Positions 39,244-41,335 of a DNA stretch of 46,823 nt are shown one piece after another. A program made the position numbers and the translations under genes. Source of the DNA: an uncultured Collinsella sp. (GTDB taxonomy: Bacteria > Actinomycetota > Coriobacteriia > Coriobacteriales > Coriobacteriaceae). The first letter of the stretch is position 1, and each line of letters opens with the position of its first letter. The notes beneath the pieces were generated by a model. The model saw only the letters and a program-made list of their open reading frames with translations, did no database searches and was not told the origin of the DNA. The DNA is taken from NCBI GenBank assembly GCA_944321445.1, contig CALULJ010000015.1, positions 1-46,823 of the forward strand, given 5' to 3'.

Positions 39244-40203
39244 ATGGAGCGTACGACCATCGTTGCCGTCGATATCGGAGGAACCAAGATTGCCTGCGGA
39301 ATCGTGACTTTGAGCGATGACGCTCCTCGTGCGGACAAGGTTGAGAAGATGCCCACCGAGGCCGCACAGGGTGGAGAGCACGTGCTCGCGCGCGTCATCT
39401 CCGCGGTGCGTGCCGCCATCGAGCGCGCCGACGAGCCGCCGGTGGGCGTGGGTATCTCCTCGGCCGGCGTGGTCGACCCGCGCACGGGCGACATCACGTT
39501 TGCGAATGAGCTCATGCCCGGTTGGGGCGGCACGCGCCTGGCAGCCGAGGTGACGGCTGCGGTCGGCCTGCCGTGCCACGTTCTGAACGACGTGCACGCC
39601 CATGCCCTGGGTGAAGCGCGCTGGGGCGGCGGGCGCGATGCGTCCAGCTGCCTGGTGGTCGCCGTGGGCACCGGCATTGGTGGCGCCTTCGTCGAGCACG
39701 GGCACATCATGCTCGGTGCTCACGACGAGGCGGGCCACATCGGACACGTGTGCTGCCCGGCAGCCGTGGGAGTTCCCTGCTCGTGCGGGGCTACGGCGCA
39801 TCTGGAACCTATCGGCGCAGGTCCCGGTATCATCCGCGAGTACATTCGCCGCGGGGGAGACGAGACCTACGACGGCGGCAAGCCCATGGACGGCGCCGAG
39901 ATTGATCGCCGCGCTGCTGCGGGCGACGAGGCCGCCAAGGGTGCCGAGGAGCGCGCCGGATGCGCGCTCGGCGAGGTCATGGGCAGCATGTGCAACATGC
40001 TCGACCCCGCCTGTGTGATCCTGTCCGGTTCGGTGGCCCAGTGCGGCCCCGATTGGTCGGATGCCGTGGCTGCGGCCTTTGCCGAGCAGGCGATGCCTCC
40101 CGTGGCGAAGACCCCGATCATCGGAGGCGAGCTGGGCGGCGACGCACCGCTCATCGGCGCGGCGGAGAACTTTGTCCGTTCGGCCTATGTAGAGGTTAAC
40201 TAG
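39244..40203 (+). CDS. ROK-family kinase, probable N-acetylmannosamine kinase
   Basis: Predicted to phosphorylate ManNAc to ManNAc-6-P with ATP. The 319-residue protein shows the phosphate-binding DIGGTKIACG (10-19), GVGISSAGVVDP, the catalytic-site Asp in LNDVHAHALGEARWGGG, and VVAVGTGIGGAFVE. The ROK zinc motif, usually CxCGxxGCxE, reads CSCGATAHLE (179-188): the third Cys is His186 and the Gly before it is Ala. E. coli NanK also departs from the canonical motif, so activity is not excluded. AAAGGAG lies upstream. Just 30 bases separate it from nanA. A glucokinase role is possible but context favours ManNAc. Confidence 0.82.
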   Translation: MERTTIVAVDIGGTKIACGIVTLSDDAPRADKVEKMPTEAAQGGEHVLARVISAVRAAIERADEPPVGVGISSAGVVDPRTGDITFANELMPGWGGTRLAAEVTAAVGLPCHVLNDVHAHALGEARWGGGRDASSCLVVAVGTGIGGAFVEHGHIMLGAHDEAGHIGHVCCPAAVGVPCSCGATAHLEPIGAGPGIIREYIRRGGDETYDGGKPMDGAEIDRRAAAGDEAAKGAEERAGCALGEVMGSMCNMLDPACVILSGSVAQCGPDWSDAVAAAFAEQAMPPVAKTPIIGGELGGDAPLIGAAENFVRSAYVEVN

Positions 40204-40214
40204 AGGTTAACTGA
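40193..40214 (+). repeat. Tandem 11-bp duplication at the end of the kinase gene
   Basis: TAGAGGTTAAC occurs twice in a row across the kinase stop codon. It may be a small slippage duplication next to the structured repeat pair. Confidence 0.5.
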
Positions 40215-40331
40215 TCCCCGCGGCTTCATGAGGCACCCGACCTCGGGGTTCAATCGTCGGGCATGGCCCTAAGGCCTATGCCCTCCTCTTTCACCCCGAT
40301 CTCGGGCACCTCAGAAAGCCGTCTCCGTTGT
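40212..40331 (-). ncRNA. Structured RNA/repeat unit 1 of a tandem pair
   Basis: A ~120-base unit that folds as one long imperfect hairpin. The outer arms are 40221-40233 and 40309-40321; then come CCCGA/TCGGG, a seven-base helix (TCGGGGT/ACCCCGA) and a terminal GGGCAT/ATGCCC hairpin. The loops TTCAATCGTC and TCCTCTTTC are identical to those in unit 2. On the plus strand the arms contain tandem C-A mismatches; on the minus strand these become U-G pairs, so the minus strand is the better RNA. It lies in the 320-bp gap between the kinase and nanE. Function unknown: standalone RNA, antisense leader RNA or interspersed palindromic repeat. Confidence 0.55.
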
Positions 40332-40339
40332 AGGTTTAG

Positions 40340-40460
40340 TGATCCCATCGGCTTTCCCAGGCACCCGACCTTCACCTTCAATCGTCGGGCGCCGCGCGCT
40401 AGGCGTGAGCCCTCCTCTTTCAGGCGAATCTCGGGCACCTGGGAAAGCCGTCTCCGTTGT
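40340..40460 (-). ncRNA. Structured RNA/repeat unit 2 of a tandem pair
   Basis: The second copy, eight bases after unit 1. Its outer 13-bp helix is perfect (40349-40361 with 40438-40450, CGGCTTTCCCAGG and its complement). Where unit 1 has TGAGG/CCTCA it has CCAGG/CCTGG, and where unit 1 has TCGGGGT/ACCCCGA it has TTCACCT/AGGCGAA, so base pairs are kept while sequence changes. The flanks TGATCCC and GTCTCCGTTGT and both internal loops are conserved. It ends 51 bases before the nanE ribosome site. The one A-C pair in the seven-base helix becomes a G-U pair on the minus strand. Confidence 0.55.
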
Positions 40461-40523: not shown

Positions 40524-41210
40524 ATGGCTATCGATCCGTTGATTCAGTCGCTTAAGGGCAAGCTCATCGTGAGCGTGCAGGCGTATCCTGGCGAGCCGCT
40601 GCGCCATCCCGAGACGATGGCCCAGATGTCTCGCGCCTGCGAGCTCGGTGGCGCCGCCGCCATCCGTTGCCAGGGTCTCTCCGACATCGCCGCCATCAAG
40701 GGGCGCTGCGAGATTCCCGTTATCGGCCTGTGGAAGGACGGCCACGAGGGCGTCTACATCACTCCGACGCTTCGCCATGCGCGTGCCTGCGTGTCTGCCG
40801 GCGCCGACATCGTTGCCATCGACGCCACCGACCGTCCGCGCCCCGATGGCAAGACGGTTGCCGATACGCTTGAGCCGCTGAAGGCGGAGGGCGTGCTCAC
40901 CATGGCAGACTGCATGACCATCGACGACATCCGCCGTGCGGTCGACCTTGGCTTCGACATCGTCTCCACGACGCTTTCCCACGGCGTGGCCGCCATCGAC
41001 TGCACGATGGCCGATGGTCCCGACCTGCCGCTGCTGCGTCAGGCAGCCGAGGAGTTCCCCGGCTTCCCCGTGGTGTGCGAGGGTCGCGTGCACACGCCCG
41101 CCGAGGCGCGCGCCGCTATCGACGCCGGCGCCTGGGCTGTGGTCGTGGGTACCGCTATCACGCATCCCACGAGCCTCACGAGCTGGTTCAAAGCGGAAGT
41201 CGAGCGCTAA
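40524..41210 (+). CDS. nanE: N-acylmannosamine-6-phosphate 2-epimerase
   Basis: Converts ManNAc-6-P to GlcNAc-6-P, linking sialic acid breakdown to amino-sugar metabolism. The 228-residue TIM-barrel protein has the family blocks LKGKLIVSVQAYPGEPLRHP, GAAAIRCQG, PVIGLWKDGHEGVYITPT (with the catalytic-region Lys), GADIVAIDATDRPRPDG and VVCEGRVHTPAEARAAIDAGAWAVVVGTAITHP. The length is typical. AAGGAGG at 40512-40518 fixes the start. It is third of nanA - ROK kinase - nanE but is set apart by the tandem structured units, so it may be separately controlled. Confidence 0.93.
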   Translation: MAIDPLIQSLKGKLIVSVQAYPGEPLRHPETMAQMSRACELGGAAAIRCQGLSDIAAIKGRCEIPVIGLWKDGHEGVYITPTLRHARACVSAGADIVAIDATDRPRPDGKTVADTLEPLKAEGVLTMADCMTIDDIRRAVDLGFDIVSTTLSHGVAAIDCTMADGPDLPLLRQAAEEFPGFPVVCEGRVHTPAEARAAIDAGAWAVVVGTAITHPTSLTSWFKAEVER

Positions 41211-41217
41211 AACCTCT

Positions 41218-41247
41218 GACGCACTTCTCCCTGGGGAGAAGTGCGTC
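41218..41247 (+). terminator. Hairpin after nanE
   Basis: A perfect 13-14 bp stem (41218-41231 with 41234-41247) lies 7 bases after the nanE stop, followed by ATTCTC. It is probably the end of the nan transcript, although the T-tract is weak. Confidence 0.6.
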
Positions 41248-41251
41248 ATTC

Positions 41252-41321
41252 TCGCCAATTGGGGGCAGGTCGCTTTTGGCCGACACGTGTCGGCCAAAAG
41301 CGACCTGCCCCCAATTGGCGA
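41252..41321. repeat. Perfect 70-bp palindrome
   Basis: Two 35-base arms, exact reverse complements, meet with no spacer at CAC|GTG (41286/41287). The left arm starts TCGCCAATTGGGGGCAGG and the right arm ends CCTGCCCCCAATTGGCGA. As DNA it could form a cruciform, as RNA a very long hairpin. It follows the nanE terminator and stops 15 bases before the likely rapZ -10 box. It is probably a mobile or repetitive palindromic element or a strong two-way transcription barrier. Confidence 0.85.
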
Positions 41322-41335
41322 GTTGCAGAGGCGGG

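Follow-up and report, generated by a model that had tools for sequence, protein, structure and literature searches.

Two adjacent structured units of about 115 nt, lying between nanK and nanE in the genome of an uncultured Collinsella sp., are members of a dispersed noncoding DNA repeat family of the Coriobacteriia. Both fold on the minus strand, which runs antisense to the upstream gene. The repeat family is real and apparently undescribed. Rfam returned nothing at the gathering threshold on the window (the whole stretch of 46,823 nt analyzed here) and nothing up to an E value of 0.5 on the element at ten other loci, among them copies from other bacterial families. No description of the repeat was found in the papers searched; the HMP2 RNA catalogue (PMC8040213) may list it among palindromic candidates. 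The family may well act as a folded single-stranded DNA hairpin that is recognized by its structure, has a REP-like habit and an attC-like strand geometry, and is mobilized or maintained by a putative enzyme.

The tandem pair and its fold

The two units start 128 to 129 nt apart. The features of the locus, in window coordinates, are as follows.
39244..40203, plus strand: nanK (ROK-type sugar kinase), the upstream gene, with the element after its stop codon (ORF list; name from sequence and gene order)
40214..40328, minus strand (folding strand): element copy 1 (covariance model R1 in its own genome, 116.8 bits, E value 1.2e-23)
40222..40240: copy 1, outer helix (P1+P2), 5′ arm, pairing with 40302-40320 (fold and pair counts; limits from the alignment)
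40250..40292: copy 1, conserved core, made up of loop TCAATCGTC, inner hairpin P4, and loop CTCCTCTTTC (exact core pattern)
40302..40320: copy 1, outer helix (P1+P2), 3′ arm, with the conserved tandem U-G/G-U of the minus strand (fold and pair counts)
40342..40457, minus strand: element copy 2, in tandem and oriented as copy 1 (covariance model R1, 121.1 bits, E value 1.2e-24)
40350..40368: copy 2, outer helix, 5′ arm, pairing with 40431-40449 (fold and pair counts)
40378..40421: copy 2, conserved core (exact core pattern)
40431..40449: copy 2, outer helix, 3′ arm (fold and pair counts)
40524..41210, plus strand: nanE, the downstream gene, with a probable ATG start at 40524 behind AGGAGG (ORF list)

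Positions 40204-40262 are 78% identical to 40332-40390, and 40272-40331 are 85% identical to 40401-40460. Each unit forms a long hairpin of the same shape that is far more stable than dinucleotide shuffles. The minus-strand folds have energies of −74.9 and −71.7 kcal/mol (z scores of −7.8 and −8.0), versus −61.5 and −58.8 kcal/mol on the plus strand (z scores of −6.7 and −5.3), and no shuffle equaled any of the four values. The original prediction, made from this DNA alone, had described two adjacent units of similar fold with the minus strand as the better folder, and these energies agree on both counts. The details that it quoted are present in the sequence: helices that differ between units (TGAGG/CCTCA versus CCAGG/CCTGG and TCGGGGT/ACCCCGA versus TTCACCT/AGGCGAA), internal loops and flanks that are identical in both, and, in both units, tandem C-A mismatches on the plus strand that become U-G/G-U on the minus strand.

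Along the folding strand, the element consists of an outer helix with the conserved tandem U-G/G-U, a 2×2 purine loop, a 7-bp helix, an internal loop, and the inner hairpin. The purine-rich internal loop has the form GAAAGAGGAG/GACGAUUGA in Collinsella. Many copies sit in a wider frame made up of a stop codon, companion hairpin A, the linker CTCGACGCTGCG, the long hairpin, and CTCGCTGAC. Hairpin A has a stem of 9 to 15 bp, with CGTC about 5 to 6 nt away. Deletion derivatives retain the outer stem only or the frame only. Outer-stem-only derivatives lie at locus L044 (contig C69 of the Collinsella sp. genome) and at L281 (contig C87 of G049, a Collinsella tanakaei An791-like genome), and the trpS site of G049 (L287) holds the frame without the long hairpin. 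An intrinsic terminator was considered and rejected: the 3′ flank is GTCTCCGTTGTTGAG, with no U run after the G+C-rich hairpin, and copies occur inside operons. Downstream of nanE lie two further inverted repeats, namely an almost perfect palindrome, about 66 nt long (CCAATTGGGGGCAGGTCGCTTTTGGCC..., positions 41258-41323) and a shorter repeat, GACGCACTTCTCCC/GGGAGAAGTGCGTC (positions 41218-41249), which recurs near other copies of the element.

Copies, sites, and covariation

The Collinsella sp. genome (2.36 Mb in 84 contigs) contains about 28 convincing places by DNA search and 34 to 35 convincing copies by covariance model R1, which describes the minus strand with 35 pairs. The core pattern, TCAATCGTC-hairpin-CTCCTCTTTC, occurs exactly 20 times in this genome, and the reversed control pattern does not occur. 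Tandem units are common (contigs C15, C53, C1, C31, and C46). A 40-genome sample included 24 further Collinsella genomes; of these, two have no copies, several have 3 to 6, and many have about 20 to 38. The covariance search of related genomes that the original prediction had proposed was run with a second model, R2, using the best 15 candidates per genome; matches were found in 86 of 248 Coriobacteriia genomes and 27 of 110 genera. They fall in the Collinsella family and two other well-sampled families of the order, which we take to be the Eggerthellaceae and Atopobiaceae, with single weak cases elsewhere. Copies from these two families, read individually, have the same architecture as those in Collinsella. 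A phage origin was rejected, as 18 core-pattern matches in viral contigs fail the model and there is no phage record; a plasmid origin was also rejected, as the only "plasmid" match, a 0.9-Mb record from Collinsella aerofaciens, contains cysS and appears chromosomal.

The host genes are unrelated housekeeping genes, named by eye from sequence, and include a zinc transporter gene, ftsY, pheS, cysS, aspS, trpS, purH, carB, and others. Gene calls were made with a simple codon-usage caller. All 23 codirectional copies in the Collinsella sp. genome begin within 40 nt of a stop codon, and 22 of 22 copies have the stop codon closer to them than the following gene. The stop codon of ftsY is provided by the element, and four relatives have an empty ftsY-ffh site. 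The cysS and purH sites are likewise empty in the relatives read, and in G049 the nanK stop codon lies within the element. In genome G124, one copy (L342, 1501-1617) falls within a murE-like reading frame, at its 3′ end, and not behind its stop. Several Collinsella genomes, C. aerofaciens among them, have the element at the 3′ end of cysS (L035, L076, L315, L070, and L072-L074), and in four of these genomes it is reversed, marking a recurrent insertion site. Genes for tRNA synthetases (cysS, pheS, aspS, and trpS) make up four of about 26 host sites, which is above chance expectation, with the limit that long conserved genes may be overrepresented.

These sites decide between the two readings that the original prediction had offered. 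Its palindromic repeat family is borne out by dozens of copies behind unrelated genes. The suggested link to nanE fails, and a nanE riboregulator is rejected: nanE is not a consistent neighbor, and orthologous nanK-nanE gaps are empty in many relatives. Dozens of scattered copies in both orientations, with no consistent neighbor, had been named as the mark of a repeat element; the copies are scattered and lack a consistent neighbor, as described, but their orientation is strikingly consistent.

Covariation, which the original prediction had also proposed to check, supports its claim of selection on the folded strand. With 20 copies, 29 of the 35 pairs change on both sides; in the set of 89 distinct copies, 35 of 35 do so, 94.3% of cells are paired, and the covariation score is 0.57, versus 0.19 in shuffles. 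None of 500 shuffles reached the observed covariation values. The 28 copies from other families show two-sided change at 31 of 35 pairs with 92% of cells paired, whereas their shuffles do not exceed 28 pairs and 68%. The exchange of whole hairpin interiors accounts for part of this covariation. In G049, whose NanK is 96% identical, the orthologous nanK-nanE gap contains both tandem units with helices swapped in a compensatory manner. At the pheS site, the interior of the hairpin matches that of the neighboring tandem copy. The number of independent events is therefore lower than the cell counts, although pairing with fixed loops is maintained throughout.

Folding strand and replication direction

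Wobble pairs distinguish the two strands. G-U cells outnumber A-C cells on the minus strand by 186 to 40 in the 89-copy set and by 74 to 15 in the other families, and a model-free count gives 181 to 49, or 93 to 49 without the tandem columns; this excess is uneven across columns, two of which lean the opposite way. In the inner hairpin, tandem G-A/A-G replaces G-C/C-G (GA in 24 and AG in 22 of 89 copies), and, among the 28 copies from other families, 18 have GA/GA as the 2×2 loop. With DNA energy parameters, the folding strand beats its complement in 75 of 80 copies.

The tips of hairpin A bear on the nature of the folded molecule. On the folding strand, 21 of 22 tetraloops are GNNA, usually with a pyrimidine as third base rather than the purine of GNRA, and triloops are mostly GNA. 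In DNA, tips of the form C(GNA)G and C(GNNA)G are exceptionally stable; the tip favored in RNA is GNRA. The tip loops thus point moderately strongly to single-stranded DNA; GNNA loops are also possible in RNA.

In three complete genomes, the orientation of the element flips once per replichore. The folding strand lies on the leading-strand template for 19 of 19, 13 of 13, and 16 of 18 copies (48 of 50 in total, omitting one copy that matches both strands and with origins placed by sampled GC skew). In two Collinsella genomes, 10 of 10 copies among the matches listed follow the same polarity. In the three complete genomes, 66 to 72% of genes lie on the leading strand, which sets the expectation from gene orientation; this orientation in turn correlates with replication. 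One copy in genome G138 (position 1,833,431) is antisense to both neighboring genes and still follows the replication rule, and gene orientation is therefore probably secondary to replication direction.

Three features, namely the tip loops, placement antisense to the upstream gene, and polarity relative to replication, favor folded single-stranded DNA over RNA. Of the structured RNA that the original prediction had put forward, the fold under selection stands, and the RNA is disfavored on these same grounds. Covariation is usually taken to prove functional RNA. The textbook covariation seen here probably reflects selection acting on DNA that folds, and pipelines for RNA discovery should take it as a caution.

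Possible mechanisms and comparison with known systems

If the element acts as folded DNA, the folded strand would be a substrate recognized by shape, rather than by sequence, by a putative host recombinase or transposase, and copies may arise or be exchanged upon this recognition. With the fold itself as the substrate, selection would maintain stem pairing and unchanged loops. Where the folding strand falls on the exposed lagging-strand template, that orientation would be lost or never inserted, owing to folding, cutting, or excision; alternatively, hairpin processing may remove copies exposed in this way. We infer both the mobility and the biochemistry of the element. Counting against this proposal, placement behind stop codons also fits a role at mRNA 3′ ends. 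A narrower and more tentative version is that the copies are free-standing, attC-like single-stranded DNA hairpin sites, spread across the order and inserted or swapped behind stop codons by a putative structure-specific recombinase, with the leading-strand-template orientation protecting them from folding, and that they belong to neither a RAYT/REP system nor an integron. If a putative enzyme does move the hairpins, this would be a new recombination system that works on single strands, with sites across the chromosome. In a long-standing model, folding on the lagging-strand template is selected against; should the polarity have that cause, the hundreds of natural copies in gut bacteria would allow a direct test of it. 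The copies offer a natural set for the study of hairpins at replication forks.

Among the other explanations, a 3′-untranslated-region RNA element, in which an mRNA hairpin just past the stop codon would halt 3′ exonucleases or adjust the following operon gene, a role already suggested for REP/BIME hairpins, would account for copies that always lie close behind stops, are usually codirectional with the upstream gene, and occur inside operons such as nanK-nanE and pheS-pheT. It is unlikely in that the mRNA strand folds worse (with C-A and U-C mismatches and pyrimidine loops), certain copies run antisense to the genes on both sides, and the polarity exceeds what gene orientation predicts. Another explanation is a polar chromosomal signal, with a host protein binding the folded strand or the duplex and reading replication direction for replication restart, segregation, or hairpin processing, and with copies retained to that end. 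The near-perfect replichore polarity in five genomes and the conserved loops with free stems are as such a signal would have them, but close relatives range from 0 to 38 copies, some good genomes have none, and copies decay and are deleted at sites that are not conserved, leaving this explanation slightly less likely still.

Transcription of the minus strand as an antisense or trans-acting structured RNA family is improbable. The tandem U-G/G-U and sheared G-A of that strand are typical RNA features, set against the lack of a consistent downstream gene, of a promoter-like element before the folding strand (by eye), and of GNRA tips, the GNNA tips having a pyrimidine as third base; such transcripts would also enter housekeeping genes antisense. 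Least probable by some distance is a classical REP/REPIN family moved by a RAYT (Y1 tyrosine transposase). RAYT-like genes are present in most Collinsella genomes, and the element is palindromic, intergenic, and multicopy; yet its unit is about 115 nt, not 20 to 40 nt, and has no GTAG tag among its conserved positions. Other repeats flank the RAYT genes of the Collinsella sp. genome, only two R1 matches occur in 20 stretches surrounding RAYT genes (at distances of about 6 and 9 kb), and Y1 genes are absent from the repeat-rich genomes G124, G120, G105, G090, G103, G214, and G242 (5 to 18 copies each among the matches listed). Simple RAYT mobilization is rejected, with no Y1 gene flanking copies and Y1 missing from several repeat-rich genomes.

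The folded single-stranded DNA hairpin that we prefer has a close parallel in attC sites, which are imperfect hairpins of 57 to 141 bp recognized by fold rather than by sequence (PMC5371416). In sedentary chromosomal integrons, the folding bottom strand of attC is antisense behind the ORF and on the leading-strand template (PMC11023631). The element is similarly an imperfect hairpin, of about 115 nt, with a conserved structure and free sequence, as shown by covariation, and its folding strand is likewise antisense behind an ORF and on the leading-strand template; loss of lagging-strand-template orientations would follow the same logic as that documented for sedentary-integron attC. It differs in that the R-box pair RYYYAAC...GTTRRRY is not among its conserved columns (flanks by inspection) and in that it occurs as single copies or short tandems behind housekeeping genes, not as cassette arrays.

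With REP, BIME, and REPIN sequences, the element shares a dispersed, extragenic location between codirectional or convergent genes, hairpin formation, and variable copy number. It is three to five times longer, its internal loops are conserved while its stems covary freely, and it lacks the GTAG tag and a flanking RAYT, Y1 being absent from several carriers. ERIC, YPAL, bcr, and similar repeats are stem-loop repeats of about 100 to 170 bp, often near gene ends, with some compensatory changes. They belong to other lineages, and the likeness noted here is one of form; we know of no replication-locked polarity in them. CGTC-tagged REPs (PMC3733652) are, like the element, palindromic without a dedicated transposase, and CGTC is found beside hairpin A here. 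In those REPs, CGTC abuts a stem of 8 to 9 bp with a loop of 4 to 5 nt and a CCA tail, whereas here it lies about 5 to 6 nt from a stem of 9 to 15 bp, with the main hairpin on the other side; that report makes no mention of Eggerthella, Collinsella, or Gordonibacter (PMC3733652). The original prediction had also raised the Collinsella-1 RNA (RF01700), which shares only its name and host genus with the element; cmscan of the sequence gave no match to it even at a permissive threshold of E ≤5.

The Collinsella sp. genome contains two RAYT-like Y1 genes, at L096 (2276-3810, contig C5) and L097 (2578-3863, contig C2). Both are flanked by their own inverted repeats (GGGAAAATAGGGACAG... and GGGGACA...TGTCCCC), which are a REPIN-like system separate from the family of about 115 bases.
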